DNA from: Chondrosia reniformis | Taxonomy: Eukaryota; Porifera; Demospongiae; Chondrillida; Chondrillidae | DNA length: 64,000 nt | Assembly (NCBI GenBank): GCA_947172415.1 | Contig: OX359190.1 | Location: 372,001-436,000 of the forward strand | Direction of reading: 5' to 3' | In this document: positions 9,688 through 63,730 of the stretch, piece after piece | Layout of the letters: each line of letters opens with the position of its first letter | How positions within the stretch are numbered: position 1 is the stretch's first letter | Position numbers and translations under genes: made by a program | Notes under the pieces: generated by a model | The model's input: the letters and a program-made list of their open reading frames with translations, nothing else | What the model was told of the DNA's origin: nothing | The model's database searches: none

Positions 9688-11871
9688 TCAAAGTACTACT
9701 ACTCTTCTGTTATTACCATCTGCTATGTAAATGAGTCCATCAATATCAACTGCTACACCACAAGGATAATTCAATCCAATATCAGTCACTTCATGGACAC
9801 ACTGTCCATCTTGTGTGAAGATGCTGAGCTTATTAGTACTATATGAAGCGACCACTATATGTCCATCACTTGTGACTGCTATACCTCGTGGACCCTTCAC
9901 AATGCCATTACCAAACTGCCTAATAAACTGACCATTCTGCTGAAACACTTGAATGCGATGATTATCACCATCTGTGACATACACCAAATCATCAGGTGTT
10001 ATGAGAATGTAACGAGGGCAACTAAACTCTCCTTCAGCTTTACCCTTGTGACCAAACCTGTACTGGAATGTACCTTCTTCTGTAAACACAGAAACACAAT
10101 GACCTCCACACTCTGCCACAAATATATGTCCCTCCTTGTTAACTGCCAAACCAAATGGTCCACTAAGTTGACCTTGATCTTTACCTTTTCCTCCAAACTG
10201 CCTTACAAATTCACCAGCTGCTGTGTAGATACTGATGTAGCCATTCCAATAGTCACTAACTATCACATTCCCTGTTCTACTTAGTGCTATTCCATACAAA
10301 CAACCACCATTCTTGACTTTGAAGCTTCTTATAACTTGACCTTGTCTGTTTAGGATAGTCACTTGTCCATTGTTATCTGAACAGTATAGCAAACCATCCG
10401 GACCTACTGCAACACCCAAATACTGAGAACCTGATGGATGCTTGAACTCCTGCTTGACTGCAGTAATTACGCTAGCACCAACTACCTTCACCTCTATTGG
10501 ACTGCCTGCTACATCATGTCCTCCAACAGTCACACTCAGATGGCACTTCTCTGATGGAACAAACTGCACCTCATATGTGCCATCTCTCATGTCTGCTACT
10601 TTACCAAACACAGGAACACCAGCTGTCACAGGACGAAGGACAGCCAACACTTTATCTCCTCCTCTGCACTCATTGCCTCTCTCATCTCTTGTCATCACCT
10701 TCAATTGCAAAGGAGGTTTCTTTATCCAAGGTCTCATTCTGCAGGTAATGACGTTATCCTTCACTTCCACTCCTTCCATAGTGCAGTTTGGTGGATGGGG
10801 ACTGTGATGGATGCTTCCAAGTGATGAGATGTACTTTTCCACTTCTTCTCGATCACAGCTCTTCAGACCAACAGAAGGTTGGATGGAGGCTCTTGGCATT
10901 GAGATACTGCTGCTGAGAGATGACATGCGACTGACAATCTTCTTTGTCACTGATAACTGCTCTTCTGTTGTTCCATTCAAACTCATCTCTTCCGACAGGC
11001 AATGGAATGCATCAAGCTTCTTCAGACTGACCTTCAATTCTCTCTCACGTCTCTCAAGTTCTCTTCTTCCCTTGTCTTCTGCTTTCCTCACTTCAGCAGC
11101 AAGACCATCACAGCGGGCTGTCACCATGGCAAACAGATGCTCCTTCATTCCAGCAATCTCTCCTAACGCATTCTCAGACTGCTGTTGGAGACTAGCTTTG
11201 CTGTCCTGCACTTCTTGGAGAGCAGATCTGATTGCCTTCCTTTGAGTCCTCACGGATGAAAGGCACTGCGTCAGAGTGGTCTTGTTGGACTCTCCCAGCT
11301 CATCGTCAATGTATGAAACTTTGTGGGAACGATGTGGTTCGATAGAAGAGCAAATGTGACAAATCAATTCTTCACAAGTGTGACAGTAAAGTTCACAATT
11401 CTTATTGTGTTTCGAGCATTTGAACAAATCCTCTTTCTTACCGCCTTGCTCAAACACTCCTTGCAACGGCTTTAATTCGTGTTTTTTAAGGAACTTGTGA
11501 GATTTGTGTTCATCGACGCATTCCTGGCAAATGAACGCATCGCAAGTCGAGCAGAAACTTACGGCCGATCTCTCTTCTTCGTGTTCCCCTTGACAGATGA
11601 CGCCTTCCTTCCGGTACTGGTTGCTCAAAGCCTTCCTCAGAGCGAACGGATGGTCAGAAAGATCCTTGAGAGACAAGGAGAACACTTCCTCGCAAATCTT
11701 GCAGGAGATGCTGCGATGGAGAATCTTCTCTCGACATTCTACCTTCTCGCACAAAGCTAATGAGTGGAGACACGGTAGACATTTCAACTCTTCTACTTTC
11801 TCTCCGCAACCGACACAAGAGAGACTAAGCTCGCTGGACTGAAGGGGTGGGACCGCTGGAAGCTCCGCCAT
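9688..11871 (-). CDS. TRIM-NHL protein 1 (727 aa, intronless)
   Basis: Single-exon TRIM-NHL protein. Domains in order: RING-like Cys/His cluster (C19, C22, C34, H36, C41, C46, C57, C60); a B-box-like cluster (C93 to H125); a canonical B-box 2 (C152, H155, C163, C166, C171, C174, H180, H183); a coiled coil at about 190-325; a filamin-type Ig domain at about 358-465; and six NHL blades from about 472 to 727. By family it is expected to be an E3 ubiquitin ligase whose propeller binds RNA or protein; the ligand is unknown. Variable blade residues: G-P-F at 571-573, C-P-R at 618-620, G-P-R at 660-662, Y-P-C at 702-704; loops NN, YWN, CGGH, GDNH, YST, GNNR. Start: ATG of MAELPAV, conserved in the family. 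Confidence 0.93.
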   Translation of the reverse strand: MAELPAVPPLQSSELSLSCVGCGEKVEELKCLPCLHSLALCEKVECREKILHRSISCKICEEVFSLSLKDLSDHPFALRKALSNQYRKEGVICQGEHEEERSAVSFCSTCDAFICQECVDEHKSHKFLKKHELKPLQGVFEQGGKKEDLFKCSKHNKNCELYCHTCEELICHICSSIEPHRSHKVSYIDDELGESNKTTLTQCLSSVRTQRKAIRSALQEVQDSKASLQQQSENALGEIAGMKEHLFAMVTARCDGLAAEVRKAEDKGRRELERRERELKVSLKKLDAFHCLSEEMSLNGTTEEQLSVTKKIVSRMSSLSSSISMPRASIQPSVGLKSCDREEVEKYISSLGSIHHSPHPPNCTMEGVEVKDNVITCRMRPWIKKPPLQLKVMTRDERGNECRGGDKVLAVLRPVTAGVPVFGKVADMRDGTYEVQFVPSEKCHLSVTVGGHDVAGSPIEVKVVGASVITAVKQEFKHPSGSQYLGVAVGPDGLLYCSDNNGQVTILNRQGQVIRSFKVKNGGCLYGIALSRTGNVIVSDYWNGYISIYTAAGEFVRQFGGKGKDQGQLSGPFGLAVNKEGHIFVAECGGHCVSVFTEEGTFQYRFGHKGKAEGEFSCPRYILITPDDLVYVTDGDNHRIQVFQQNGQFIRQFGNGIVKGPRGIAVTSDGHIVVASYSTNKLSIFTQDGQCVHEVTDIGLNYPCGVAVDIDGLIYIADGNNRRVVVL

Positions 11872-15863: not shown

Positions 15864-18050
15864 TCAAAGTACTACTACTCTTCTGTTATTACTATCTGCT
15901 ATGTAAATGAGTCCATCACTATCAACTGCTACACCAAAAGGACAATTTAATCCAATATCAGTCACTTCATGGACACACTGTCCATCTTGTGTGAAGATGC
16001 TGAGCTTATTAGCACCATATGAAGTTACCACTATATGTCCATCACTTGTGACTGCTATACCTTCTGGAACCTTCACAATGCCATTACCAAACTGCCTAAT
16101 AAACTGACCATTCTGCTGAAACACTTGAATGCAATGATTTCTTTCATCTGTGACATACACCAAATCATCAGGTGTTATGAGAATGTAACTTGGGCAATTA
16201 AACTCTCCTTCAGCTTCACCAAAGTGACCAAACCTGTACAGGAATGTACCTTCTTCTGTAAACACAGAAACACAATTACCTCTACACTCTGCAACAAATA
16301 TATGTCCCTCCTTGTTAACTGCCACACCACATGGATAACTAAGTTGACCTTGATCTTCACCTTTTCCTCCAAACTGCCTTACAAATTCACCAGCTGCTGT
16401 GTAGATACTGATGTAGCCATTATTAAAGTCACTAACTATCACATTCCCTGTTCTACTTAGTGCTATTCCTAACAATGAACCACCATTCTTGACTTTGAAG
16501 CTTCTTATAACTTGACCTTGTCTGTTTAGGACAGTCACTTGTCCTCTCTTATCTGAACAGTATAGCAAACCATCCGGACCTACTGCAACACCCAAATACA
16601 CAGAACCTGATGGATGCTTGAATGCCTGCTTGACTGCAGTAATTACGCTACCACAAACTACCTTCACCTCTACTGGACTGCCTGCTACATCATGTCCTCC
16701 AACAGTCACACTCAGATGGCACTTCTCTGATGGAACACTTGCAAACTGTACCTCATATGTGCCATCTCTAATGTCTGCTACTTTACCAAACACAGGAACA
16801 CCTGCTGTCACAGGACGAAGGACAGCCAACACTTTCTCTCCTCCTCTGCACTCATTGCCTCTCCCGTCCTTTGTCATCACCTTCAAGTGAAGAGGTTTCT
16901 TTATCCAAGGTCTCATTCTGCAGGTAATGACGTTATCCTTCACTTCCATTCCTTCCATAGTGCAGTTTGGTGGATGGGGACTGTGATGGATGCTTCCGAG
17001 TGATGAGATGTACTTTTCCACTTCTTCTCGATCACAGCTCTTCAGACCAACAGAAGGTTGGATGGAGGCTCTTGGCATTGAGATACTGCTGCTGAGAGAT
17101 GACATGCGACTGACAATCTTCTTTGTCACTGATAACTGCTCTTCTGTTGTTCCATTCAAATTCATCTCTTCTGACAGGCAATGGAATGCATCAAGCTTCT
17201 TCAGACTGACCTTCAATTCTCTCTCGCGTCTCTCAAGTTCTCTTCTTCCCTTGTCTTCTGCTTCCCTCACTTCAGCAGCAAGACCATCACAGCGGGCTGA
17301 CATCATGGCAAACAGATGCTCCTTCATTCCACCAATCTCTCCTAACGCATTCTCAGACTGCTGTTGGAGACTAGCTTTACTGTCCTGCACTTCTTGGAGA
17401 GCAGATCTGATTGCCTTCCTTTGAGTCCTCACGGATGAAAGGCACTGCGTCAGAGTGGTCTTGTTGGACTTTTCTAGCTTATCGTCAATGTACGACACTT
17501 TGTGGGAATGGTGAGGTTCGATCGATCGACAAATGTGACAAATCATTTCTTCACAAGTGTGACAGTAAAGTTCGCAATTCTTATTGTGCTTCAAGCAATC
17601 GAACAAATCCTCTTTCTTACCGCCTTGCTCAAACACTCTTTGCAACGGCTTCATTTCGTGTTTCTTTAAGAATTTACGCGTTTTATGATGATCAACGCAT
17701 TCCTGGCAAATGAACGCATCGCAAGTCGAGCAGAAACTTACGGCCGATCTCTCTTCTTCGTGTTCCTCCTGACAGATGACGCCTTTCTTCCGGTACTGGT
17801 TGCTCAAAGCCTTCCTCAGAGCGAACGGATGATCAGAAAGATCCTTGAGAGACAAGGAGAACACTTCCTCGCAAATCTTGCAGGAGACGCTGCGATGGAG
17901 AATCTTCTCTCGACATTCTACCTTCTCGCACAAAGCTAACGAGTGGAGACACGGTAGACATTTCAACTCTTCCACTTTCTCTCCGCAACCGACACAAGAG
18001 AGACTAAGCTCGCTGGACTGAAGGGGTGGGACCGCTGGAAGCTCCGCCAT
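15864..18050 (-). CDS. TRIM-NHL protein 2 (728 aa, intronless)
   Basis: Same architecture as TRIM-NHL 1 (RING-like, two B-boxes, coiled coil, filamin-type domain, six NHL blades) and intact from the ATG of MAELPAV to the terminal RRVVVL. The first B-box reads DHHKTRKF and the second CHICRSIEPHHSH; genes 1 and 4 have DEHKSHKF and CHICSSIEPHR. Variable blade residues: Y-P-C, C-P-S, V-P-E and C-P-F in blades 3 to 6; loops KR, FNN, CRGN, ERNH, YGA, SNNR. It lies between PEX12 copy 2 and the next amplified block. Expected to be a ubiquitin ligase with its own ligand specificity; this is inference from family and variation. Confidence 0.93.
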   Translation of the reverse strand: MAELPAVPPLQSSELSLSCVGCGEKVEELKCLPCLHSLALCEKVECREKILHRSVSCKICEEVFSLSLKDLSDHPFALRKALSNQYRKKGVICQEEHEEERSAVSFCSTCDAFICQECVDHHKTRKFLKKHEMKPLQRVFEQGGKKEDLFDCLKHNKNCELYCHTCEEMICHICRSIEPHHSHKVSYIDDKLEKSNKTTLTQCLSSVRTQRKAIRSALQEVQDSKASLQQQSENALGEIGGMKEHLFAMMSARCDGLAAEVREAEDKGRRELERRERELKVSLKKLDAFHCLSEEMNLNGTTEEQLSVTKKIVSRMSSLSSSISMPRASIQPSVGLKSCDREEVEKYISSLGSIHHSPHPPNCTMEGMEVKDNVITCRMRPWIKKPLHLKVMTKDGRGNECRGGEKVLAVLRPVTAGVPVFGKVADIRDGTYEVQFASVPSEKCHLSVTVGGHDVAGSPVEVKVVCGSVITAVKQAFKHPSGSVYLGVAVGPDGLLYCSDKRGQVTVLNRQGQVIRSFKVKNGGSLLGIALSRTGNVIVSDFNNGYISIYTAAGEFVRQFGGKGEDQGQLSYPCGVAVNKEGHIFVAECRGNCVSVFTEEGTFLYRFGHFGEAEGEFNCPSYILITPDDLVYVTDERNHCIQVFQQNGQFIRQFGNGIVKVPEGIAVTSDGHIVVTSYGANKLSIFTQDGQCVHEVTDIGLNCPFGVAVDSDGLIYIADSNNRRVVVL

Positions 18051-21091: not shown

Positions 21092-23278
21092 TCAAAGTAC
21101 TACTACTCTACTGTTATTACTATCTGCTATGTAAATGAGTCCATTACTATCAACTGCTACACCAAGAGGAACATTCAATCCAATATCAGTCACTTCATGG
21201 ACACACTGTCCATCTTGTGTGAAGATGCTGAGCTTATTAGCACCATATGAAGCTACCACTATATGTCCATCACTTGTGACTGCTATACCTAGTGGATCCT
21301 TCATAATGCCATTACCAAACTGCTTAATAAACTGACCATTCTGCTGAAACACTTGAATGCGATTATTTCCTCCATCTGTGACATACACCAAATCATCAGG
21401 TGTTATGAGAATGTAAGTTGGGTAATTAAACTCTCCTTCAGCTTTACCTTCGTGACCAAACCTGTACAGGAATGTACCTTCTTCAGTAAACACGGAAACA
21501 CAATGAACCCCACACTCTGCCACAAATATATGTCCTTCCTTGTTAACTGCCACACCTAATGGATTACTAAGTTGACCTAGATCTTTACCTTTTCCTCTAA
21601 ACTGCCTTACCAATTCACCAGCTGCTGTGTAGATACTGATGTAGCCATAATCAATGTCACTAACTATCACATTCCCTGTTCTACTTAGTGCTATTCCAAT
21701 CAATGAACCACCATTCTTGACTTTGAAGCTTCTTATAACTTGACCTTGTCTGTTTAGGATAGTCACTTGTCCTTTGTTATCTGAACAGTATAGCAAACCA
21801 TCCGGACCTACTGCAACACCCAAACACCCATAACCTGATGGATGCTTGAACTCCTGCTTGACTGCAGTAATTACGCTACCACCAACTACCTCCACCTCTA
21901 CTGGACTGCCTGCTACATCATGTCCCCCAACAGTCACACTCAGATGGCACTTCTCTGATGGAAAACTCACAAACTGTACCTCATATGTGCCATCTCTCAT
22001 GTCTGCTACTTTACCAAACACAGGAACACCTGCTGTCACAGGACGAAGGACAGCCAACACTTTCTCTCCTCCTCTGCACTCATTGCCTCTCTCGTCTCTT
22101 GTCATCACCTTAAAGTGAAGAGGTTTCTTTATCCAAGGTCTCATTCTGCAGGTAATGACGTTATCCTTCACTTCCACTTCTTCAATAGTGCAGCTTGGTG
22201 GATGGGGACTGTGATGGATGCTTCCAAGTGATGAAATGTACTTTTCCACTTCTTCTCGATCACAGCTCTTCAGACCAACAGAAGGTTGGATGGAGGCTCT
22301 TAGCATTGAGATACTGCTGCTGAGAGATGACATGCGACTGACAATCTTCTTTGTCGCTGATAACTGCTCTTCTGTTGTTCCATTCAAACTCATCTCTTCT
22401 GACAGGCAATGGAATGCATCAAGCTTCTTCAGACTGACCTTCAATTCTCTCTCGCGCCTCTCAAGTTCTCTTCTTCCCTTGTCTTCTGCTTCCCTCACTT
22501 CAGCAACAAGACCATCACAGCGGGCTGTCATCATGGCAAACAGATGCTCCTTCATTCCACCAATCTCTCCTAACGCATTCTCAGACTGCTGTTGGAGACT
22601 AGCTTTGCTGTCCTGCACTTCTTGGAGAGCAGATCTGATTGCCTTCCTTTGAGTCCTCACGGATGAAAGGCACTGCGTCAGAGTGGTCTTGTTGGACTTT
22701 CCTAGCTTATCGTCAATGTACGACACTTTGTGGGAATGGTGAGGTTCGATCGATCGACAAATGTGACAAATCATTTCTTCACAAGTGTGACAGTAAAGTT
22801 CGCAATTCTTACTGTGCTTCAAACAATCGAACAAATCCTCTTTCTTACCGCCTTGCTCAAACACTCCTTGCAACGGCTTCATTTCGTGTTTCTTTAAAAA
22901 TTTACGCGTTTTATGATGATCAACGCATTCCTGGCAAATGAACGCATCACAGTTTGAGCAGAAACTTATGGCCGATCTCTCTTCTTCGTGTTCCTCCTGA
23001 CAGATGACACCTTCCTTCCGGTACTGGTTGCTCAAAGCCTTCCTCAGAGCGAACGGATGATCAGAAAGATCTTTGAGAGACAAGGAGAACACTTCCTCGC
23101 AAATCTTGCAGGAGACGCTGCGATGGAGAATCTTCTCTCGACATTCTACCTTTTCGCACAAAGCTAACGAGTGGAGACACGGTAGACATTTCAACTCTTC
23201 TACTTTCTCTCCGCAACCGACACAAGAGAGACTAAGCTCGCTGGACTGAAGGGGTGGGACCGCTGGAAGCTCCGCCAT
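21092..23278 (-). CDS. TRIM-NHL protein 3 (728 aa, intronless)
   Basis: Intact TRIM-NHL gene with the family's standard domain order. The first B-box reads CSNCDAF where most copies have CSTCDAF; the second is of the CHICRSIEPHHSH type. Scaffold changes include LRASIQ for PRASIQ and CTIEEVEV for CTMEGVEV before the filamin-type domain. Variable blade residues: N-P-L, Y-P-T, D-P-L and V-P-L in blades 3 to 6; loops NK, IDY, CGVH, GGNN, YGA, SNNS. Blade 1 opens with GYGCLGV rather than GSQYLGV. Two leucines at the second variable position (blades 3 and 6) set it apart from other copies. Confidence 0.93.
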   Translation of the reverse strand: MAELPAVPPLQSSELSLSCVGCGEKVEELKCLPCLHSLALCEKVECREKILHRSVSCKICEEVFSLSLKDLSDHPFALRKALSNQYRKEGVICQEEHEEERSAISFCSNCDAFICQECVDHHKTRKFLKKHEMKPLQGVFEQGGKKEDLFDCLKHSKNCELYCHTCEEMICHICRSIEPHHSHKVSYIDDKLGKSNKTTLTQCLSSVRTQRKAIRSALQEVQDSKASLQQQSENALGEIGGMKEHLFAMMTARCDGLVAEVREAEDKGRRELERRERELKVSLKKLDAFHCLSEEMSLNGTTEEQLSATKKIVSRMSSLSSSISMLRASIQPSVGLKSCDREEVEKYISSLGSIHHSPHPPSCTIEEVEVKDNVITCRMRPWIKKPLHFKVMTRDERGNECRGGEKVLAVLRPVTAGVPVFGKVADMRDGTYEVQFVSFPSEKCHLSVTVGGHDVAGSPVEVEVVGGSVITAVKQEFKHPSGYGCLGVAVGPDGLLYCSDNKGQVTILNRQGQVIRSFKVKNGGSLIGIALSRTGNVIVSDIDYGYISIYTAAGELVRQFRGKGKDLGQLSNPLGVAVNKEGHIFVAECGVHCVSVFTEEGTFLYRFGHEGKAEGEFNYPTYILITPDDLVYVTDGGNNRIQVFQQNGQFIKQFGNGIMKDPLGIAVTSDGHIVVASYGANKLSIFTQDGQCVHEVTDIGLNVPLGVAVDSNGLIYIADSNNSRVVVL

Positions 23279-23600
23279 TTGTAGACCTCGCCTAGTTGCT
23301 GTATTCGGTAAATGTTTATTCTATCTGTCTAATTTTAGTAATCAGTTCAGTTGTTACTATTTTGGTACTTTATGGTTTATGTAGCAATCTATAGATCGAT
23401 TCTAGTTAAGATTTATTGTTTATATATATGTAGATCGATTTTAGAATTTTGAATTACTTTTTTGTTATTATCTTAATGTGCTTAATATGTCCAACCTGTG
23501 AGTTTTGAAACTTTATAGATTGATTTTAGTTAAGCTATAAATTTCAGTTGCTTTCATTTATAACATTTCTATAAAGCTCATTCAATAGCAGAACTGCCTT

Positions 23601-27201: not shown

Positions 27202-29388
27202 TCAAAGTACTACTACTCTACTGTTATTAAGATCTGCTATGTAAATGAGTCCATCACTATCAACTGCTACACCACAAGGACCATTCAATCCAATATCAGT
27301 CACTTCATGGACACACTGTCCATCTTGTGTGAAGATGCTGAGCTTATTAGCACTAGCTGAAGCGACCACTATATGTCCATCACTTGTGACTGCTATACCT
27401 CGTGGATACTTCACAATGCTATTACCAAACTGCCTAATAAACTGACCATTCAGCTGAAACGCTTGAATGCGATGATTTCCTTCATCTATGACATACACCA
27501 AATCATCAGGTGTTATGAGAATGTAACGAGGGTAATTAAACTCTCCTTCACCTTTACCCTTGTGACCAAACCTGTACAGGAATGTACCTTTTTCTGTAAA
27601 CACAGAAACACAATGACCTCCCCACTCTGCAACAAATATATATCCCTCCTTGTTAACTGCCACACCACATGGAAAACCAAGTTGACCTTGATCTTTACCT
27701 TTTCCTCCAAACTGCCTTACAAATTCACCAGCTGCTGTGTAGATACTGATGTAGCCATAATCAATGTCACTAACTATCACATTCCCTGTTCTACTTAGTG
27801 CTATTCCAATCAATGAACCACCATTCTTGACTTTGAAGCTTCTTATAAGTTGACCTTGTCTGTTTAGGATAGTCACTTGTCCTTTGTTATCTGAACAGTA
27901 TAGCAAACCATCCGGACCTACTGCAACACCCAAATACTGAGAACCTGATGGATGCTTGAACTCCTGCTTGACTTCAGTAATTACGCTACCACCAACTACC
28001 TTCACCTCTACTGGACTGCCTGCTACATCATGTCCTCCAACAGTCACACTCAGATGGCACTTCTCTGATGGAACACTCGCAAACTGCACCTCATATGTGC
28101 CATCTCTCATGTCTGCTACTTTACCAAACAGAGGAACACCTGCTGTCACAGGACGAAGGACAGCCAACACTTTCTCTCCTCCTCTGCAATCATTGCCTCT
28201 CTCGTCCCTTGTCATCACCTTCAAGTGAAGAGGTTTCTTTATCCAAGGTCTCATTCTGCAGGTAATGACGTTATCCTTCACTTCCACTCCTTCCATAGTG
28301 CAGTTTGGTGGATAGGGACTGTGATGGATGCTTCCGAGTGTTGAGATGTACTTTTCCACATCTTCTTGATCACAGCTCTTCAGACCAACAGAAGGTTGGA
28401 TGGAGGCTCTTGGCATTGAGATACTCCTGCTGAGAGATGACATGCGACTGACAATCTTCTTTGTCACTGATAACTGCTCTTCTGTTGTTCCATTCAAACT
28501 CATCTCTTCTGACAGGCAATGGAATGCATCAAGCTTCTTCAGACTGACCTTCAATTCTCTCTCGCGTCTCTCAAGTTCTCTTCTTCCCTTGTCTTCTGCT
28601 TCCCTCACTACAGCAGCAAGACCATCACAGCGGGCTGTCACCATGGCAAACAGATGCTCCTTCATTCGACCAATCTCTCCTAATACATTCTCAGACTGCT
28701 GTTGGAGACTAGCTTTGCTGTCCTGCACTTCTTGGAGAGCAGATCTGATTGCCTTCCTTTGAGTCCTCACGGATGATAGGCACTGCGTCAGAGTGGTCTT
28801 GTTCGACTCTCTCAGCTCATCGTCAATGTACGACACTTTGTGGAAACGATGCGGTTCGATAGAAGAGCAAATGTGACAAATCATTTCTTCACAAGTGTGA
28901 CAGTAAAGTTCGCAATTCTTTCTGTGTTTCGAGCATTTGAACAAATCCTCTTTCTTACCGCCTTGCTCAAACACTCCTTGCAACGGCTTTAATTCGTGTT
29001 TTTTAAGGAACTTGTGAGATTTGTGTTCATCGACGCATTCCTGGCAAATGAACGCATCGCAAGTCGAGCAGAAACTTACGGCCGATCTCTCTTCTTCGTG
29101 TTCCCCTTGACAGATGACGCCTTCCTTCCGGTACTGGTTGCTCAAAGCCTTCCTCAGAGCGAACGGATGGTCAGAAAGATCTTTGAGAGACAAGGAGAAC
29201 ACTTCCTCGCAAATCTTGCAGGAGACGCTGCGATGGAGAATCTTCTCTCGACATTCTACCTTTTCGCACAAAGCTAACGAGTGGAGACACGGTAGACATT
29301 TCAACTCTTCTACTTTCTCTCCGCAATCGACACAAGAGAGACTAAGCTCGCTGTACTGAAGGGGTGGGACCGCTAGAAGGTCCGCCAT
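27202..29388 (-). CDS. TRIM-NHL protein 4 (728 aa, intronless)
   Basis: Intact. The N-terminus diverges slightly from the other copies (MADLLAVPPLQYSEL; CVDCGEK for CVGCGEK). B-boxes resemble gene 1 (DEHKSHKF and CHICSSIEPHR), which suggests shared cassettes between non-adjacent genes. Other changes include TLGSIHHSPYPP and NDCRGGEK. Variable blade residues: F-P-C, Y-P-R, Y-P-R and G-P-C in blades 3 to 6; loops NK, IDY, WGGH, EGNH, ASA, LNNS. The blade 4 strand has VIDEG where others have VTD. Same inferred function as the other copies. Confidence 0.92.
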   Translation of the reverse strand: MADLLAVPPLQYSELSLSCVDCGEKVEELKCLPCLHSLALCEKVECREKILHRSVSCKICEEVFSLSLKDLSDHPFALRKALSNQYRKEGVICQGEHEEERSAVSFCSTCDAFICQECVDEHKSHKFLKKHELKPLQGVFEQGGKKEDLFKCSKHRKNCELYCHTCEEMICHICSSIEPHRFHKVSYIDDELRESNKTTLTQCLSSVRTQRKAIRSALQEVQDSKASLQQQSENVLGEIGRMKEHLFAMVTARCDGLAAVVREAEDKGRRELERRERELKVSLKKLDAFHCLSEEMSLNGTTEEQLSVTKKIVSRMSSLSRSISMPRASIQPSVGLKSCDQEDVEKYISTLGSIHHSPYPPNCTMEGVEVKDNVITCRMRPWIKKPLHLKVMTRDERGNDCRGGEKVLAVLRPVTAGVPLFGKVADMRDGTYEVQFASVPSEKCHLSVTVGGHDVAGSPVEVKVVGGSVITEVKQEFKHPSGSQYLGVAVGPDGLLYCSDNKGQVTILNRQGQLIRSFKVKNGGSLIGIALSRTGNVIVSDIDYGYISIYTAAGEFVRQFGGKGKDQGQLGFPCGVAVNKEGYIFVAEWGGHCVSVFTEKGTFLYRFGHKGKGEGEFNYPRYILITPDDLVYVIDEGNHRIQAFQLNGQFIRQFGNSIVKYPRGIAVTSDGHIVVASASANKLSIFTQDGQCVHEVTDIGLNGPCGVAVDSDGLIYIADLNNSRVVVL

Positions 29389-32206: not shown

Positions 32207-34387
32207 TCAAAGTACTACTACTCTACTGTTATAACTATCTGCTATGTAAATGAGTCCATCACTATCAACTGCTACACCATAAGGACCTTTCAATCCAATA
32301 TCAGTCACTTCATGGACACACTGTCCATCTTGTGTGAAGATGCTGAGCTTATTAGCACTCCATGAAGCGACCACTATATGTCCATCACTTGTGACTGCTA
32401 TACCTCGTGGATACTTCACAATGCCATTACCAAACTGCCTAATAAACTGACCATTCTGCTGAAACACTTGAATGCAATGATTACTATCTGTGACATACAC
32501 CAAATCATCAGGTGTTATGAGAATGTAACCAGGGCAATTAAACTCTCCTTCAGCTTTACCCTTGTGACCAAACCTGTACAGGAATGTACCTTCTTCTGTA
32601 AACACAGAAACACAATTACCCCAACACTCTGCCACAAATATATGTCCCTCCTTGTTAACTGCCACACCAAATGGCTTACTAACTTGACCTTGATCTTTAC
32701 CTTTTCCTCCAAACTGCCTTACAAATTCACCAGCTGCTGTGTAGATACTAATGTAGCCTTTATCAAAGTCACTAACTATCACATTCCCTGTTCTACTTAG
32801 TGCTATTCCGAACAATCTACCACCATTCTTGACTTTGAAGCTTCTTATAACTTGACCTTGTCTGTTTAGGATAGTCACTTGTCCTTTGTTATCTGAACAG
32901 TATAGCAAACCATCCGGACCTACTGCAACACCCAAATACTGAGAACCTGATGGATGCTTGAACTCCTGCTTGACTGCAGTAATTACGCTAACACCAACTA
33001 CCTTCACCTCTACTGGACTGCCTGCTACATCATGTCCTCCAACAGTCACACTCAGATGGCACTTGTCTGATGGAACACTTGCAAACTGCACCTCATATGT
33101 GCCATCTCTCATGTCTGCTACTTTACCAAACACAGGAACACCTGCTGTCACAGGACGAAGGACAGCCAACACTTTCTCTCCTCCTCTGCACTTATTGCCT
33201 CTCTCGTCTCTTGTCATCACCTTCAATTGCAAAGGAGGTTTCTTTATCCAAGGTCTCATTCTGCAGGTAACGACGTTATCCTTCACTTCCATTCCTTCCA
33301 TAGTGCAGTTTGGTGGATGGGGACTGTGATGGATGCTTCCAAGTGATGAGATGTACTTTTCCACTTCTTCTCGATCACAGCTCTTCAGACCAACAGAAGG
33401 TTGGATGGAGGCTCTTGGCATTGAGATACTACTGCTGAGAGATGACATGCGACTGACAATCTTCTTTGTCACTGATAACTGCTCTTCTGTTGTTCCATTC
33501 AAACTCATCTCTTCTGACAGGCAATGGAATGCATCAAGCTTCTTCAGACTGACCTCCAATTCTCTCTCGCGTCTCTCAAGTTCTCTTCTTCCCTTGTCTT
33601 CTGCTTCCCTCACTTCAGCAGCAAGACCATCACAGCGGGCTGTCACCATGGCAAACAGATGCTCCTTCATTCCACCAATCTCTCCTAACGCATTCTCAGA
33701 CTGCTGTTGGAGACTAGCTTTGCTGTCCTGCACTTCTTGGAGAGCAGATCTGATTGCCTTCCTTTGAGTCCTCACGGATGAAAGGCACTGCGTCAGAGTG
33801 GTCTTGTTCGACTCTCTCAGCTTATCGTCAATGTACGACACTTTGTGGGAATGGTGAGGTTCGATCGATCGACAAACAGTACAAATCATTTCTTCACAAA
33901 TGTGACAGTAAAGTTTGCAATTCTCTTTGTGTTTCGAGCATTTGAACAAATCCTGACCGCCTTGCTCAAACACTCCTTGCAACGGCTTTAATTCGTGTTT
34001 CTTCAAGACTTTTCGAGTTTCATGATGATCGACGCATTCCTGGCAAATGAACGCATCGCAAGTCGAGCAGAAACTTACGGCCGATCTCTCTTCTTCGTGT
34101 TCCTCCTGACAGATGACGCCTTCCTTCCGGTACTCGTTGCTCAAAGCCTTCTTCAGAGCGAACGGATGGTCAGAAAGATCCTTGAGAGACAAGGAGAACA
34201 CTTCCTCGCAAATCTTGCAGGAGACGCTGCGATGGAGAATCTTCTCTCGACATTCTACCTTCTCGCATAAAGCTAACGAGTGGAGACACGGTAGACATTT
34301 CAACTCTTCCACTTTCTCTCCGCAACCGACACAAGAGAGACTAAGCTCGCTGGACTGAAGGGGTGGGACCGCTGGAAGCTTCGCCAT
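32207..34387 (-). CDS. TRIM-NHL protein 5 (726 aa, intronless)
   Basis: Intact, with a 3-residue deletion before the second B-box (EQGGQDLF where others have EQGGKKEDLF) and a one-codon deletion in the blade 4 loop (VTDSNHC). The second B-box has CTVCRSIEPHHSH, a variant shared only with gene 7 on the far side of the window; the first has DHHETRKVL. Variable blade residues: K-P-F, C-P-G, Y-P-R and G-P-Y in blades 3 to 6; loops NK, FDK, CWGN, SNH, WSA, SYNS. It is the last minus-strand member before the MDH1B remnant. Confidence 0.93.
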   Translation of the reverse strand: MAKLPAVPPLQSSELSLSCVGCGEKVEELKCLPCLHSLALCEKVECREKILHRSVSCKICEEVFSLSLKDLSDHPFALKKALSNEYRKEGVICQEEHEEERSAVSFCSTCDAFICQECVDHHETRKVLKKHELKPLQGVFEQGGQDLFKCSKHKENCKLYCHICEEMICTVCRSIEPHHSHKVSYIDDKLRESNKTTLTQCLSSVRTQRKAIRSALQEVQDSKASLQQQSENALGEIGGMKEHLFAMVTARCDGLAAEVREAEDKGRRELERRERELEVSLKKLDAFHCLSEEMSLNGTTEEQLSVTKKIVSRMSSLSSSISMPRASIQPSVGLKSCDREEVEKYISSLGSIHHSPHPPNCTMEGMEVKDNVVTCRMRPWIKKPPLQLKVMTRDERGNKCRGGEKVLAVLRPVTAGVPVFGKVADMRDGTYEVQFASVPSDKCHLSVTVGGHDVAGSPVEVKVVGVSVITAVKQEFKHPSGSQYLGVAVGPDGLLYCSDNKGQVTILNRQGQVIRSFKVKNGGRLFGIALSRTGNVIVSDFDKGYISIYTAAGEFVRQFGGKGKDQGQVSKPFGVAVNKEGHIFVAECWGNCVSVFTEEGTFLYRFGHKGKAEGEFNCPGYILITPDDLVYVTDSNHCIQVFQQNGQFIRQFGNGIVKYPRGIAVTSDGHIVVASWSANKLSIFTQDGQCVHEVTDIGLKGPYGVAVDSDGLIYIADSYNSRVVVL

Positions 34388-44968: not shown

Positions 44969-49860
<4,892 letters not shown>

Positions 49861-55456: not shown

Positions 55457-57637
55457 ATGGCGGAGCTTCTAGCGGTCCCACCCCTTCAGTCCAGCGAGCT
55501 TAGTCTCTCTTGTGTCGGTTGCGGAGAGAAAGTAGAAGAGTTGAAATGTCTACCGTGTCTCCACTCGTTAGCTTTGTGCGAAAAGGTAGAATGTCGAGAG
55601 AAGATTCTCCATCCCAGCGTCTCCTGCAAGAATTGCGAGGAAGTGTTCTCCTTGTCTCTCAAGGATCTTTCTGACCATCCGTTCGCTCTGAGGAAGGCTT
55701 TGAGCAACCAGTACCGGAAGGAAGGCGTCATCTGTCAGGAGGAACACGAAGAAGAGAGATCGGCCGTAAGTTTCTGCTCGACTTGCGATGCGTTCATTTG
55801 CCAGGAATGCGTCGATCTTCATAAAATACGAAAATTCTTCAAGAAACACGAAATGAAGCCGTTGCAAGGAGTGTTTGAGCAAGGTGGTAAGAAAGAGGAT
55901 TTGTTCAAATGCTCGAAACACAAAGAGAATTGCAAACTTTACTGTCACACTTGTGAAGAAATGATTTGTCACATTTGCTCTTCTATCGAACCGCATCGTT
56001 CCCACAAAGTGTCGTACATTGACGATGAGCTGGGAGAGTCGAACATGACCACTCTGACGCAGTGCCTTTCATCCGTGAGGACTCAAAGGAAGGCAATCAG
56101 ATCTGCTCTCCAAGAAGTGCAGGACAGCAAAGTTAGTCTCCAACAGCAGTCTGAGAATGCGTTAGGAGAGATTGGTGGAATGAAGGAGTATCTGTTTGCC
56201 ATGGTGACAGCCCGCTGTGATGGTCTTGCTGCTAAAGTGAGGGAAGCAGAAGACAAGGGAAGAAGAGAACTTGAGAGACGCGAGAGAGAATTAAAGGTCA
56301 GTCTGAAGAAGCTTGATGCATTCCATTGCCTGTCAGAAGATATGAGTTTGAATGGAACAACAGAAGAGCAGTTATCAGTGACAAAGAAGATTGTCAGTCG
56401 CATGTCATCTCTCAGCAGCAGTATCTCAATGCCAAGAGCCTCCATCCAACCTTCTGTTGGTCTGAAGAGCTGTGATCGAGAAGAAGTGGCAAAGTACATC
56501 TCATCACTCGGAAGCATCCATCACAGTCCCCATCCACCAAACTGCACTATGGAAGGAGTGGAAGTGAAGGATAACGTCATTACCTGCAGAAGCTTTGCAA
56601 AGAAACCTCTTCACTTGAAGGTGATGACAAGAGACGAGAGAGGCAATGAGTGCAGAGGAGGAGAGAAAGTGTTGGCTGTCCTTCGTCCTGTGACAGCAGG
56701 TGTTCCTGTGTTTGGTAAAGTAGAAGACATGAGAGATGGCACATATGAGGTGCAGTTTGCGAGTGTTCCATCAGAGAAGTGCCATCTGAGTGTGACTGTT
56801 GGAGGACATGATGTAGCAGGCAGTCCAGTAGAGGTGAAGGTAGTTGGTGGTAGCGGAATTACTGCAGTCAAGCAGGAGTTCAAGCATCCATCAGGTTCTC
56901 GGTATTTGGGTGTTGCAGTAGGTCCGGATGGTTTGCTATACTGTTCAGATGTCAGTGGACAAGTGACTATCCTAAACAGACAAGGTCAAGTTATAAGAAG
57001 CTTCATAGTCAAGAATTGTGGTTGCTTGCTTGGAATAGCACTAAGTAGAACAGGGAATGTGATAGTTAGTGACATTAGTAATGGCTACATCAGTATCTAC
57101 ACAGTAGCTGGTGAATTTGTAAGGCAGTTTAGAGGAAAAGGTAAAGGTCAAGGTCAAATTAGTAATCCATGTGGTTTGGCAGTTAACAAGGAGGGACATA
57201 TATTTGTGGCAGAGTGGGGAGGTCATTGTGTTTCTGTGTTTACAGAAGAAGGTACATTCCAGTACAGGTTTGGTCACAAGGGTAAAGCTGAAGGAGAGTT
57301 TAATCACCCAACTTATATTCTCATAACACCTGATGATTTGGTGTATGTCACAGATGGTCATAATGATCGCATTCAAGTGTTTCAGCAGAATGGTCAGTTT
57401 ATTAGGCAGTTTGGTGATGGCATTGTGAAGGTTCCAGAAGGTATAGCAGTCACAAGTGATGGACATATAGTGGTCGCTTCATATAGTGCTAATAAGCTCA
57501 GCATCTTCACACAAGATGGACAGTGTGTCCATGAAGTGACTGATATTGGATTGAATCGTCCATATGGTGTAGCAGTTGATAGTGATGGACTCATTTACAT
57601 AGCAGATAGTAATAACAGTAGAGTAGTAGTACTTTGA
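55457..57637 (+). CDS. TRIM-NHL protein 6 (726 aa, intronless)
   Basis: First plus-strand member, with the family domain order. Together with gene 7 it has CRSFAKKPLHL in place of CRMRPWIKKP at the filamin-type domain, a group marker for the plus-strand pair. RING-like region: HPSVSCKNC. The first B-box reads DLHKIRKFF and the second CHICSSIEPHRSH. Variable blade residues: N-P-C, H-P-T, V-P-E and R-P-Y in blades 3 to 6; loops VS, ISN, WGGH, GHND, YSA, SNNS. It lies 3' of ACBD5 in the same orientation, as does gene 7 with the second ACBD5. Confidence 0.93.
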   Translation: MAELLAVPPLQSSELSLSCVGCGEKVEELKCLPCLHSLALCEKVECREKILHPSVSCKNCEEVFSLSLKDLSDHPFALRKALSNQYRKEGVICQEEHEEERSAVSFCSTCDAFICQECVDLHKIRKFFKKHEMKPLQGVFEQGGKKEDLFKCSKHKENCKLYCHTCEEMICHICSSIEPHRSHKVSYIDDELGESNMTTLTQCLSSVRTQRKAIRSALQEVQDSKVSLQQQSENALGEIGGMKEYLFAMVTARCDGLAAKVREAEDKGRRELERRERELKVSLKKLDAFHCLSEDMSLNGTTEEQLSVTKKIVSRMSSLSSSISMPRASIQPSVGLKSCDREEVAKYISSLGSIHHSPHPPNCTMEGVEVKDNVITCRSFAKKPLHLKVMTRDERGNECRGGEKVLAVLRPVTAGVPVFGKVEDMRDGTYEVQFASVPSEKCHLSVTVGGHDVAGSPVEVKVVGGSGITAVKQEFKHPSGSRYLGVAVGPDGLLYCSDVSGQVTILNRQGQVIRSFIVKNCGCLLGIALSRTGNVIVSDISNGYISIYTVAGEFVRQFRGKGKGQGQISNPCGLAVNKEGHIFVAEWGGHCVSVFTEEGTFQYRFGHKGKAEGEFNHPTYILITPDDLVYVTDGHNDRIQVFQQNGQFIRQFGDGIVKVPEGIAVTSDGHIVVASYSANKLSIFTQDGQCVHEVTDIGLNRPYGVAVDSDGLIYIADSNNSRVVVL

Positions 57638-57967: not shown

Positions 57968-59783
57968 ATGGCGGCCATTGGAAGTGGTTCTAATCCAGTG
58001 GCAATCCTCAACACCTTCTACCCGAAGCTCCCGTACGTGTTTAGGGATCCGATTGGTCCGCCTCACAATCGCGTCTTCTTCTGCTCCGTCACCGTGGAGG
58101 AGAGGGTCTACAGCGGTCACGGGTCCAGCAAAAAGGCGGCGAAACAAGCGGCCGCTCAAGAAGCTTTGAAGGAACTACACAACATGAGACTACGTCTGAG
58201 TTACGGATCACAATGTAAGCGCCCCTGGTCCTTCGTGTCAGATAGAAGCGTTTATATAGAAATTGCAATATTTACCCATTGTATACTGACAAATGTAGAA
58301 AATGAGTAATCCTCTTCAATATAATATTATGTCTTCTGAATGTTTGGTTTTGTAGTTTCTATGACAACCAAATAATCTGTCATCTCTCATGTCTGTAAGC
58401 ACACCTAGGCCTTCATGTATGAAGTATTTGTATAGAAATTACACTAAAAGCCTTTGTCCAAGTAGTAATATTCATTTGGTCAATATTGTACTGTTCCAAC
58501 ATTTGCTGGTCAATATTGTACTGTTCCAACATTTGCTGGTCAATATTGTACTGTTCCAACATTTGCTGGTCAATATTGTACTGTTCCAACATGTGTTGGT
58601 CAATATTGTACTGTTCCAACATTTGCTGGTCAATATTGTACTGTTCCAACATTTGCTGGTCAATATTGTACTGTTCCAACATTTGCTGGTCAATATTGTA
58701 TCCTTAGAGAACGTTCTTGAATCCCCTCAGTGAATATGTTGTTAATGTTTGGTTGTACAGTTTCCATGACAACCATAAAATCTGTCATCTCTCATGTCTG
58801 TAGGTACTGCTGATGATGTGTTGAGTGAAAATTTTGTGGAGAACGAGACAGAAAGGTCTACTCTAAGAGTGGAGGAAGAGGGAGAGAGGGAGGAGGAGGT
58901 AGAGAGGGAGGAGGGGCAGGGAGAGGACTCTGATGAGCCAGCAGCCAAGAGAGCACGTACTGGACCCCCGCCCACATTGGCCCCGCCCACATTGTCCACG
59001 CCCACTCATCCAGTGTCCATTTTAATGGAGTCCTTTCCCACTACAGAGTTTACAGAAAAGTCACAAAAAGGTCCGTCTCACAAGCCGACATTTGAGTACA
59101 GTGTCAAAGTGCAGGGTTGGGAGTTCACTGGAAGCGGAGGAAACAAGAAAGATGCCAAATTAAGTGCTGCTCAGAATGCGCTCGAGTTTCTTGCTCGTCA
59201 AGGTTACCTCAGACACAAGCCCCACCTCCTGAGAGCCATTGGAGTGCCTGAGCTCGGTGAGGTTGCCAGGCAACCACTGCAGGATGCTGCTATGAATGAC
59301 ATGACCATTTCCAAGATTAATAACTTTATCACAAAGACTGCATTCCGTCTCTCCGAAGAGGTTCAGTGTGGACAACCCAAAGTGACTGCTGCTCTAATTA
59401 TGCTGCAGACAGAAGTGTCTCCATGGCAACCTCTAGTAGCCTCACTCAGCCCCCTGGGGGCGGGAGATCAGATCATTGCCATAGCAACGGGTACAAAGTG
59501 CATCAGTGGAATACATCTCAGTGAGGGAGGTTATGCACTGAATGATTGTCATGCTGAGGTTGTGGTTCGAAGAGCCTTTATGCACTTCATGTACCACCAG
59601 TTGGAACTGCACAAGGAGCACAAGGGAGGACAGAGCATTCTAGAAAAACTGGAAAATGGCAAATTTAGTGTCCGCAGAGGTATCACCTTTCACCTCTACA
59701 TCTCCACCTCTCCCTGTGGGGATGGGAGGGTGTTTTCCCCCAATGAAGAGATGTGTACATTTCTCTTTGGGATTCATTTTTAA
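57968..59783 (+). pseudogene. ADAR-type RNA adenosine deaminase, 3'-truncated (408 aa)
   Basis: Adenosine deaminase acting on double-stranded RNA. Exon 1 (57968-58214) has a double-stranded RNA-binding domain (SGHGSSKKAAKQAAAQEAL). Exon 2 (58804 onward) has an acidic linker, a second such domain (SGGNKKDAKLSAAQNALEFL) and the first half of the deaminase domain. The active-site His-Ala-Glu lies in NDCHAEVVVRRAF at about residue 332, and the first zinc Cys in SPCGDGRVFSPNEE at about 386. After NEE the sequence runs into MCTFLFGIHF and a stop, and the second ACBD5 copy begins 13 bp later. The remaining catalytic half, with the second zinc Cys and inositol phosphate site, is gone. It is either dead or a binding-only protein. 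Confidence 0.82.
58478..58700. repeat. 30-bp minisatellite in ADAR intron 1
   Basis: Eight units of ggtcaatattgtactgttcc plus aacatttgct, nearly identical except one unit with atgtgtt. The period of exactly 30 bp leaves all frames open, producing spurious reading frames on both strands. Confidence 0.92.
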
Positions 59784-61219: not shown

Positions 61220-61552
61220 GCCCTTCCCAAATTACATATGTACAAGTTTATTTTCATAGATGTCTCTCCATTAAACACTTCTCTCCATTGAATGTATTAT
61301 TTAAGGAATTAAGTAGAACATAGAGATAGTTATCAGTATTTTCATGTACAAATTTTAGTAATTATACTACAAGTTAATTCTTTATTTATTTATTTATTTA
61401 TTCAAATGTGTGTAATAAAATCGATCTATAGATTGCTACATAAACCATAAAGTACCAAAATAGTAACAACTGAACTGATTACTAAAATTAGACAAACAAC
61501 AGACAGATAGAATAAACATTTACCAAATAAAGCAACTAGGCGAGGTCTGCAA
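61220..61552. promoter_or_regulatory. ACBD5 copy 2 3' flank and TRIM-NHL 7 upstream region
   Basis: AT-rich spacer followed from ~61425 by the TRIM-NHL upstream block (ccataaagtaccaaaatag), ending at the ATG at 61553. Confidence 0.5.
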
Positions 61553-63730
61553 ATGGCGGAGCTTCCAGCGGTCCCACTCATTCAGTCCAGCGAGCTTAGT
61601 CTCTCTTGTGTCGGTTGCGGAGAGAAAGTAGACGAGTTGAAATGTCTACCGTGTCTCCATTCGTTAGCTTTGTGCGAGAAGGTAGAATGTCGAGAGAAGA
61701 TTCTCCATCGCAGCGTCTCCTGCAAGAATTGCGAGGAAGTGTTCTCATTGTCTCTCAAGGATCTTTCTGACCATCCGTTCGCTCTGAGGAAGGCTTTGAA
61801 CAACCAGTACCGGAAGGAAGGCGTCATCTGTCAGGAGGAACACGAAGAAGAGAGATCGGCCGTAAGTTTCTGCTCGACTTGCGATGCGTTCATTTGCCAG
61901 GAATGCGTCGATCATCATAAAACGCGTAAAGTCTTCAAGAAACACGAAATGAAGCCGTTGCAAAAAGTGTTTGAGCAAGGCGGTAAGAAAGAGGATTTGT
62001 TCAAATGCTCGAAACACAAAGAGAATTGCAAACTTTACTGTCACACTTGTGAAGAAATGATTTGTACTGTTTGTCGATCGATCCAGCCTCACCATTCTCA
62101 TGAAGTGTCGTACATTGATGATGAGCTGGGAGAGTCGAACAAGACCACTCTGACGCAGTGCCTTTCATCCGTGAGGATTCAAAGGAAGGCAATCAGATCT
62201 GCTCTCCAAGAAGTGCAGGACAGCAAAGCTAGTCTCCAACAACAATCTGAGAATGCGTTAGGAGAGATTGGTGGAATGAAGGAGCATCTGTTTGCCATGG
62301 TGACAGCCCGCTGTGATGGTCTTGCTGCTAAATTGAAGGAAGCAGAAGACAAGGGAAGAAGAGAACTTGAGAGACGCGAGAGAGAATTGAAGGTCAGTCT
62401 GAAGAAGCTTGATGCATTCCATTGCCTGTCAGAAGATATGAGCTTGAATGGAACAACAGAAGAGCAGTTATCAGTGACCAAGAAGATTGTCAGTCGCATG
62501 TCATCTCTCAGCAGCAGTATCTCAATGCCAAGAGCCTCCATCCAACCTTCTGTTGGTCTGAAGAGGTATGATCAAGAAGAAGTGGAAAAATACATCTCAT
62601 CACTTGGAAGCATCCATCACAGTCCCCATCCACCAAACTGCACTATGGAAGGAGTGGAAGTTAAGGATAACGTCATTACCTGCAGAAGCTTTGCAAAGAA
62701 ACCTCTTCACTTGAAGGTGATGACAAGAGACGAGAGAGGCAATGAGTGCAGAGGAGGAGAGAAAGTGTTGGCTGTCCTTCGTCCTGTGACAGCAGGTGTT
62801 CCTGTGTTTGGTAAAGTAGCAGACATGAGAGATGGCACATATGAGGTACAGTTTGCGAGTGTTCCATCAGAGAAGTGCCATCTGAGTGTGACTGTTGGAG
62901 GACATGATGTAGCAGGCAGTCCAGTAGAGGTGAAGGTAGTTGGTGCTAGCGTAATTACTGTAGTCAAGCAGGAGTTCAAGCATCCATCAGGTTCTCGGTA
63001 TTTGGGTGTTGCAGTAGGTCCGGATGGTTTGCTATACTGTTCAGATGTCAGAGGACAAGTGACTATCCTAAACAGACAAGGTCAAGTTATATATAGAAGC
63101 TTTAAAGTCAAGAGTGGTGGTTGGTTGGATGGAATAGCACTAAGTAGAACAGGGAATGTGATAGTTAGTGACTTTAGTAATGGCTTCATCAGTATCTACA
63201 CAGCAGCTGGTGAATTTGTAAGGCCGTTTGGAGGAAAAGGTAAAGATCAAGTTAGTAAGCCATGTGGTGTGGCAGTTAACAAGGAGGGACATATATTTGT
63301 GGCAGAGTGTTGGGGTAATTGTGTTTCTGTGTTTACAGAAGAAGGTACATTCCTGTACAGGTTTGGTCACAAGGGTAAAGGTGAAGGAGAGTTTAATTGC
63401 CCAAGTTACATTCTCATAACACCTGATGATTTGGTGTATGTCACAGATGGTAATAATGGTCGCATTCAAGTGTTTCAGCAGAATGGTCAGTTTATTAGGC
63501 AGTTTGGTAATGGCATTGTTAAAAATCCACAAGGTATAGCAGTCACAAGTGATGGACATATAGTTGTCGCTTCATATAGTGCTAATAAGCTCAGCATCTT
63601 CACACAAGATGGACAGTGTGTCCATGAAGTGACTGATATTAGATTGAATGGTCCTTGTGGTGTAGCAGTTGGTAGTGATGGACTCATTTATATAGCTGAT
63701 CGTAATAACAGAAGAGTAGTAGTACTTTGA
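61553..63730 (+). CDS. TRIM-NHL protein 7 (725 aa, intronless)
   Basis: Second plus-strand member. It has the CRSFAKKPLHL marker of gene 6 but the second B-box variant CTVCRSIQPHHSH, otherwise seen only in gene 5, so it looks mosaic. Other differences: KRYDQEE before the filamin-type domain, one extra residue (QVIYRSF) at the end of blade 1, and loss of two residues (GKDQVSKP) before blade 3. Variable blade residues: K-P-C, C-P-S, N-P-Q and G-P-C in blades 3 to 6; loops VR, FSN, CWGN, GNNG, YSA, RNNR. The blade 6 Asp of VAVDSDG is Gly here. It is intact to RRVVVL. Confidence 0.93.
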   Translation: MAELPAVPLIQSSELSLSCVGCGEKVDELKCLPCLHSLALCEKVECREKILHRSVSCKNCEEVFSLSLKDLSDHPFALRKALNNQYRKEGVICQEEHEEERSAVSFCSTCDAFICQECVDHHKTRKVFKKHEMKPLQKVFEQGGKKEDLFKCSKHKENCKLYCHTCEEMICTVCRSIQPHHSHEVSYIDDELGESNKTTLTQCLSSVRIQRKAIRSALQEVQDSKASLQQQSENALGEIGGMKEHLFAMVTARCDGLAAKLKEAEDKGRRELERRERELKVSLKKLDAFHCLSEDMSLNGTTEEQLSVTKKIVSRMSSLSSSISMPRASIQPSVGLKRYDQEEVEKYISSLGSIHHSPHPPNCTMEGVEVKDNVITCRSFAKKPLHLKVMTRDERGNECRGGEKVLAVLRPVTAGVPVFGKVADMRDGTYEVQFASVPSEKCHLSVTVGGHDVAGSPVEVKVVGASVITVVKQEFKHPSGSRYLGVAVGPDGLLYCSDVRGQVTILNRQGQVIYRSFKVKSGGWLDGIALSRTGNVIVSDFSNGFISIYTAAGEFVRPFGGKGKDQVSKPCGVAVNKEGHIFVAECWGNCVSVFTEEGTFLYRFGHKGKGEGEFNCPSYILITPDDLVYVTDGNNGRIQVFQQNGQFIRQFGNGIVKNPQGIAVTSDGHIVVASYSANKLSIFTQDGQCVHEVTDIRLNGPCGVAVGSDGLIYIADRNNRRVVVL

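Follow-up and report, generated by a model that had tools for sequence, protein, structure and literature searches.

Hypervariable positions on one predicted face of the NHL propeller in a TRIM-NHL multigene family of the sponge Chondrosia reniformis: a candidate recognition repertoire

Seven TRIM-NHL genes stand close together in one region of the genome of the sponge Chondrosia reniformis, alike in scaffold and different from one another at recurring places of their NHL propellers. This locus raises the question of what the differences represent: a set of binding surfaces kept diverse by selection, the product of a local mutator, or the drift of unconstrained loops. The best reading of the evidence is a diversified recognition repertoire on a TRIM-NHL scaffold. 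The stretch of DNA analysed, hereafter the window, comprises 64,000 nucleotides (C2:372,001-436,000), and the genome searched comprises 117,379,552 bases in 15 contigs.

Each of the seven genes is a single open frame of 739-742 codons (Table 1), and the residues that an initial annotation had read from blades 5 and 6 are correct for genes 1-7. As that annotation proposed, the reading frames of all seven (7/7) appear to be intronless, judging from the genomic sequence. Whole-length identity to gene 4 is 88-92% for the other six window genes. Gene 1 encodes, in order, a divergent RING-like finger, two B-boxes, a coiled coil, a filamin domain and a six-blade NHL propeller, so that the B-boxes, coiled coil and C-terminal NHL repeats of a TRIM-NHL protein are all present. 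Both B-boxes, filamin and the NHL repeats score above the Pfam cut-off in genes 1 and 4, the two scanned, and the full-length AlphaFold model, which is of low confidence (pLDDT 60), contains a long helix at residues 193-294. No NCBIfam model scored above its cut-off. At the N terminus lies a zinc finger resembling a degenerate RING: its Cys/His residues are invariant in 7/7 window genes, and the best Pfam RING match (PF13920) reaches E 0.03 and a score of 14.5 bits, the cut-off being 27. L065, a more distant relative in the same genome, has a clear RING. Residues are numbered throughout on gene 4, from Met=1 to residue 728.

Table 1. Positions of the TRIM-NHL genes and of selected gene 4 features in the window
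Feature	Position	Strand	Remark
TRIM-NHL gene 1	Met-stop 9688..11871	-	open frame 9688-11913
TRIM-NHL gene 2	15864..18050	-	open frame 15864-18092
TRIM-NHL gene 3	21092..23278	-	open frame 21092-23320; query of genome search
TRIM-NHL gene 4	27202..29388	-	open frame 27202-29430
TRIM-NHL gene 5	32207..34387	-	open frame 32207-34429
TRIM-NHL gene 6	55457..57637	+	open frame 55415-57637
TRIM-NHL gene 7	61553..63730	+	open frame 61511-63730
NHL propeller of gene 4, as modelled, 272 residues	27205..28020	-	AlphaFold + Foldseek
Gene 4 segment with 23 hypervariable codons, residues 484 to 721	27226..27939	-	entropy + model
Conserved ~130-base block before gene 4 start codon	29389..29520	-	5' leader and/or promoter

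The array switches strand, with genes 1-5 on the minus and 6-7 on the plus strand, across unrelated genes at about 34500-55400 of the window, where GC skew changes sign. Inside the array, positions 43344-44681 (+) carry RWD and IBR domains (Pfam); this gene we take to be an RNF14-like RBR ubiquitin ligase. An ADAR-like frame with a dsRNA-binding motif and an adenosine-deaminase domain lies between genes 6 and 7 (58779-59783, +). At 38750-39547 (+), a kinase-domain fragment precedes a series of near-identical short repeats (LLNHTPS-type). A 494-codon open frame (46450-47934, -) has abundant Pro, Gln, Ser and Gly and gave no Pfam match at E 0.001 and no NCBIfam match at E 0.01.

The family extends well past the window. 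A genome search with gene 3 returned 62 matches, corresponding to at least 61 loci, one locus being split in two pieces. At least 34 loci form one array of about 278 kb (C2:180,015-458,468), and 27 further loci lie outside it, of which C2 holds 12 and other contigs 15. In 57 of the 61 loci, a stop-to-stop open frame spans 720 codons or more. All 61 were inspected and 51 copies aligned; the ten left out are broken or truncated (L036, L045, L055, L060), C-terminally altered (L047), or more divergent or gapped (L058, L059, L061, L062, L063). L047 and L060, both on C14, end in the same altered C-terminal reading, as if they derived from one frameshifted ancestor. Upstream homology has a median extent of 136 bases: the block adjoining the start codon shows 86-92% consensus conservation, and for most pairs homology fades beyond about 130 bases. 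This block contains TACTAAAATTAGACA, and most of the 21 copies listed carry repeated AAAATCGATCT at the block's far edge; in L020, part of the block seems inverted.

Variation among the 51 copies is concentrated at few sites. The hypervariable (HV) set is defined as the 23 propeller positions with entropy of at least 1.7 bits. It holds 21 of 24 motif positions, namely the residues on either side of the Pro in x-P-x-G (x1 and x2) and the first two after the B-strand Asp (D+1 and D+2); blade 3 has Glu and blade 5 Ser in place of this Asp. The x1 and x2 residues occupy the DA loops and the beginning of strand A, and D+1 and D+2 the BC loops. The two other members of the set, 610 and 618, are DA-loop neighbours. 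Among the 22 most variable columns, 20 are Pro-flanking (or equivalent) or D+1/D+2 positions, the remaining two being 610 and 618; next come 383 and 156, which lie outside the propeller and match the weakest HV site in variability, and shortly afterwards 679, a D+2 position. Motif positions 486, 590 and 636 vary less and fall outside the HV set, and D+3 hardly varies.

The initial annotation placed the variation at the Pro-flanking residues and the post-Asp loop of each blade, and this was evaluated with a list of 30 positions (both Pro-flanking residues or their equivalents and D+1 to D+3 in six blades), which follows that description and retains invariable positions but was drawn up after the alignment had been seen and is not blind. 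Across the 44 copies outside the window, median entropy is 2.19 bits at these 30 positions versus 0.16 at the other 696 (Mann-Whitney p 5e-19), and p is 3e-17 against the 229 other NHL positions (median 0.16). The rule is thus upheld, with refinements at D+3, 486, 590, 636, 610 and 618. The accompanying description of a nearly identical scaffold stands only in part: the scaffold is conserved but not identical, an average pair differing by about 17 replacements at the 23 HV codons versus about 20 over the rest of the propeller.

The 51 genes carry 49 distinct HV strings. Compared with residue-blind expectation, HV positions are enriched in F (3.1x), W (2.7x), N (1.65x) and Y (1.55x) and depleted in A (0.14x), P (0.21x) and T (0.22x), which points to selection for contact-making side chains. 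At the codon level, Ala, Thr, Pro and TCN Ser (except at site 525) are scarce, and Gly and AGY Ser are common.

AlphaFold, applied to the seven window propellers (mean pLDDT 91.0, and pTM 0.88 for the gene 4 model), predicts 24 strands in six blades, and the top Foldseek matches are the NHL domains of Thin (E 1.8e-23), TRIM2 and TRIM71, with Brat also matched; both methods thus indicate a six-bladed NHL propeller. The DA and BC loops share one face of a propeller. In the predicted model, the 1.7-bit threshold is reached at 18 of 72 positions in these loops (BC 10/23, DA 8/49) and at 5 of 36 in strand A, all five being the second residue of the strand. It is reached at none of 55 positions in the AB and CD loops (AB 0/30, CD 0/25) and none of 90 in the other strands (B 0/30, C 0/29, D 0/31). 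The AB and CD loops of the opposite face are conserved, with a mean entropy of 0.16-0.17. With every propeller position assigned to strand or loop, the HV sites therefore appear confined, within the propeller, to one face as had been proposed, rather than scattered over the fold. The same arrangement is described for WD40 propellers, whose d-a loop and b-c turn lie on the same (top) face, according to passages of PMC1805685.

Diversity at the codon level indicates that selection acts on these sites. Mean diversity is 0.490 at the first and second bases of the 23 HV codons versus 0.061 at silent third bases (326 conserved four-fold codons), and values of at least 0.45 occur at 30 of 46 of the former versus 6 of 326 of the latter (Fisher p 1e-26). 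A custom FUBAR-type codon model, using a tree built from the part outside the propeller, yields posterior means of 13.6 for beta and 1.5 for alpha at HV sites, compared with 0.79 and 0.92 respectively for the remaining propeller, and gains 268 lnL units over beta<=alpha. All 23 HV sites have P(beta>alpha)>0.95, within a total of 40 such sites; a full-scaffold tree gives 54, again including all 23. In the site-wise dN/dS analysis that the initial annotation had called for, every HV site therefore exceeds 1, though exchange among copies inflates such calls. This exchange violates the model's single tree, so that the codon model alone overcalls.

The extent of overcalling is evident from neutral simulations. 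When all sites shared one tree, none of 700 passed P>0.95 in either of two runs; with a separate genealogy for each site, 20 and 30 of 700 passed, the lnL gains being 47 and 96 and the highest beta 5.9; tripling both rates let 81 of 700 pass, with a gain of 198 and a maximum beta of 24. The HV set nevertheless stands out, because 22 of 23 HV beta values (range 5.9-24) exceed the neutral-exchange control and the propeller scaffold shows no elevated silent rate (alpha 0.92). Site 618 (beta 5.9) fails this bar and 721 (6.5) barely clears it. Five non-HV sites also clear it (156, 382, 467, 486 and 639; beta 7.7-10.0); among them, 486 belongs to the motif and 639 to a BC loop. Positive selection at further sites outside the HV set (5, 27, 138, 191, 260, 389 and others) was dropped, as free-exchange neutral simulation yields similar numbers. 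Statistically, these data show that diversifying selection drives change at the HV codons.

One alternative, that surface loops merely drift under relaxed constraint or that copies are dead or mis-assembled, could draw on the four of 61 loci lacking a 720-codon open frame and on the fairly high scaffold omega of 0.63. An assembly QV of 69.8, given in passages of PMC12181767, speaks against mis-assembly. Relaxed constraint is ruled out by the conserved loops of the opposite face together with HV diversity above silent, since an approximately eightfold excess of HV first and second bases over silent third bases is beyond what relaxation can give. As a whole, this explanation is scarcely credible.

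A targeted mutator would be a different source of such a pattern. Diversity-generating retroelements direct mutation to adenines from a template repeat with a reverse transcriptase; a mutator of this bacterial type, or a deaminase, might write variation into codon bases 1 and 2. Consistent with this idea, the third base stays the same at many HV codons whose first two bases occur in many states (site 484 is NNG in all but one copy, and site 661 always NNT), second-base C is rare at 0.033 versus 0.099 expected, and diversity for third-base A/G reaches 0.135 at HV codons versus 0.031 elsewhere (4.4-fold, 9 sites), compared with 0.050 versus 0.027 for T/C (1.9-fold); both third-base measures are crude and include replacement changes. 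The joint HV fit prefers alpha 2.5 and beta 13, 6.8 lnL units better than alpha 1, with alpha highest at sites 525, 542 and 543. The pooled alpha and the third-base A/G excess indicate that silent-type change is somewhat raised at HV codons. However, it is raised far less than replacement: silent differences in same-residue pairs are 0.065 at HV codons versus 0.042 in the propeller scaffold, and silent diversity is 0.050 within four codons of HV sites, compared with 0.033 at greater distance (p 0.017) and 0.058 beyond the propeller. Since a local mutator should elevate both kinds of change equally, this contrast speaks against it. Each base is present at the first position of 18-21 of the 23 HV codons, so no single-base signature emerges, and site 663 mostly retains its third-base A, making adenine-directed mutation a poor fit. 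A targeted mutator, including one aimed at exact bases, keeps a very small probability. Local hypermutation as the main cause was likewise rejected, silent diversity at or near HV codons being about 1.5 times that elsewhere versus an eightfold replacement-type excess; diversifying selection fits the contrast of 0.49 and 0.06 better.

Selection operates in a family whose members appear to exchange sequence. Across 218 biallelic scaffold sites, mean r2 declines from 0.24 at less than 10 bases to 0.12 at 10-30, 0.056 at 30-60 and about 0.03 beyond 120, and incompatibility at less than 100 bases is 0.344, below each of 500 permutations (mean 0.415). Scaffold linkage weakens within about 60 bases, which suggests short-tract exchange between copies. 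Among HV residues, examined in 48 genes after L019, L030 and L044 were additionally dropped, the ten pairs 1-2 codons apart have a mean z of 2.3, with three of them above 3, whereas group means are 0.2-0.5 for the remaining 243 pairs, of which only 663-703 and 527-637 exceed 3. Eleven loops examined occur in 16-30 versions each, 7-13 of which are common to at least two genes, and recurrent mutation also contributes to this sharing. The decay of linkage is observed, and the pattern fits short-tract gene conversion, its presumed cause, mixing loops as modules. Beside L016, outside its main open frame, lies an NHL fragment with a 233-column match, 78.5% identical to gene 4; fragments of this kind could be conversion donors.

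Individual pairs illustrate the tempo of change. The L018 and L019 propellers are separated by four HV replacements and one silent change, five codons in all, while 45 of 1395 bases differ outside the propeller, so that the propeller seems to have been recently copied between them. A search of the 51 copies yielded no donor for the changed loop of this pair. Between the propellers of genes 1 and 5 there are 12 scaffold replacements, a single silent change in the scaffold, and differences at 15 of 23 HV residues. Two of the closest pairs, L024/L044 (one silent and seven scaffold replacements) and L029/L030 (two silent and two scaffold replacements), have no HV difference, contrary to what would follow if HV sites simply changed first.

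The known TRIM71/LIN41 and Brat are developmental regulators present in few copies. They share the same NHL fold (Foldseek TM-score normalised to query, 0.80-0.89), and LIN41 likewise combines filamin with NHL and has its RNA face where the sponge propeller is variable; the sponge family differs in its at least 61 copies with that face hypervariable. KRAB zinc-finger proteins, which track transposons, offer a comparison for one further explanation, namely RNA-guided control, in which each copy would bind and silence a different endogenous, transposon or viral RNA through a LIN41-like face. The initial annotation held that known TRIM-NHL proteins use such loop surfaces for binding, and for RNA the published contacts of zebrafish LIN41 agree: the excerpted text of PMC5908797 lists C563, R564, R581, S582, R611, K628 and D629, together with Y658, W660, R676, R707, F722, R752 and R770. 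Mapped on the 6fpt chain with a constant offset of 415 set by eye, 13 of these 14 correspond to x1, x2, D+1 or D+2, and C563 to the residue preceding x1. The sponge HV set thus matches the LIN41 contact set by position. The probability of 13/14 by chance is about 1e-16, given 20 such positions in five blades (the contact-less sixth excluded) and an assumed 281 residues. In addition, NHL domains bind RNA via this same face, as stated in passages of PMC9070667, and the mean net charge of the 23 HV residues is positive, +1.4. That charge ranges from -3 to +5, however, so that some copies are net negative, and the HV mix is rich in F, W, Y, N, C and both charges, whereas 8 of the 14 listed LIN41 contacts are Arg or Lys. 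RNA-guided control is judged unlikely.

The closest functional analogue appears to be the HNWD family of the fungus Podospora anserina. Its members, including het-d and het-e, are NACHT-WD40 non-self recognition genes that form a multigene family under concerted evolution, with selected codons at 7 and 9 of the d-a loop, flanking a conserved residue, and at 25 and 27 of the b-c turn, all on the top face (PMC1805685, excerpt). This geometry is that of x1/x2 and D+1/D+2 in the sponge, where selection likewise falls on d-a and b-c loop residues of the putative top face. The two systems differ in that HNWD genes encode WD40 repeats in a fungal NACHT protein, whereas the sponge genes encode NHL repeats in an animal TRIM protein, and in that HNWD exchanges near-identical repeats within and between genes, while sponge blades differ within a gene and exchange is apparently between genes. 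Allorecognition or self-sterility, with the repertoire discriminating conspecifics as het-d and het-e do, gains some appeal from the same general fold and the same two selected loop types. HNWD proteins carry NACHT, however, and no NACHT domain was found in Pfam scans of genes 1 and 4; the sponge family is thus not an HNWD member and the likeness is one of analogy. Allorecognition is judged improbable.

Among TRIM proteins, fish finTRIM, BTR and TRIM35/HLTR form multigene families in which a conserved scaffold bears hypervariable loops under positive selection, and the selected-class omega is about 1.9 to 5.7, with one fragment at 1.0, among the rows listed (PMC3137616, partial text). They use B30.2, with variability mainly in the beta2-beta3 loop, whereas the sponge family uses six blades of one NHL face. 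Like finTRIMs, it joins multigene expansion to positive selection at candidate ligand-binding loops, their role being assigned by position, and it would resemble these fish families in logic without being a member. A comparable principle is known from PRDM9 and KRAB zinc-finger arrays, in which a homogenised scaffold accompanies selected change at ligand-contact codons; those are DNA-binding finger arrays with within-gene repeats, and the sponge protein is a propeller. Among the open-licence PubMed Central matches listed, no report of hypervariable or positively selected NHL propellers was found.

A second family in the same genome, about 55% identical, is a weaker version of the same pattern. 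It comprises 39 loci, 26 of them on C9. In 9 of these 39, mean entropy is 1.11 at the 23 HV-homologous sites versus 0.23 at 246 others (p 2e-13), and nine positions reach at least 1.5 bits, eight in DA/BC loops or strand A and one in the pre-propeller tail; six of the nine belong to the HV set. Two C9 gene pairs with equal scores (7,172,259/7,219,964 and 7,177,614/7,225,319), each 47,705 bases apart, represent either a recent segmental duplication or a retained haplotype copy.

Taken together, the structural and evolutionary half of the interpretation offered in the initial annotation is borne out: within the propeller the variable sites lie on one predicted face, replacement is in excess, and the positions correspond to the RNA contacts of LIN41. 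An immune or self/non-self role, and the ligand, we infer. A recognition repertoire of this kind might work as follows. The more constant half (RING-like finger, B-boxes, coiled coil and filamin) would assemble and signal, by analogy with TRIM biology, while the six-blade propeller, in the predicted model, presents about 23 variable side chains on its top face. Frequent short-tract exchange, presumably conversion, would keep the scaffold alike and re-assort loops into new combinations. The likeliest ligands would be fast-changing foreign molecules, such as viral, bacterial or symbiont protein or RNA, on the face with which TRIM71/LIN41 binds RNA, and binding might lead to TRIM clustering and ubiquitin tagging or to translational silencing. 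An inborn repertoire that combines selection at HV codons, short-tract exchange, foreign ligands and TRIM output is favoured with a probability of roughly 0.6. Against it stand the degenerate RING, overcalling under exchange, the variability of 383 and 156 outside the propeller, and the absence of HV change in L024/L044 and L029/L030. A more specific form is tentative and falls somewhat short of an even chance: an intracellular germline repertoire of twelve loops re-assorted among about 100 loci (two families, 61 + 39) by very short conversion tracts, its positions convergent with HNWD.

Immunoglobulin, LRR, B30.2 and WD40 are scaffolds diversified for recognition, and, if the repertoire reading is true, the TRIM-NHL propeller joins them, in an animal that lacks adaptive immunity and lives with dense microbial symbionts. 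The match with HNWD would then represent a convergent choice of the same propeller positions. The 23 variable codons, set against a conserved scaffold, provide a map of the candidate binding site, and in this way the identity of the ligand becomes testable.
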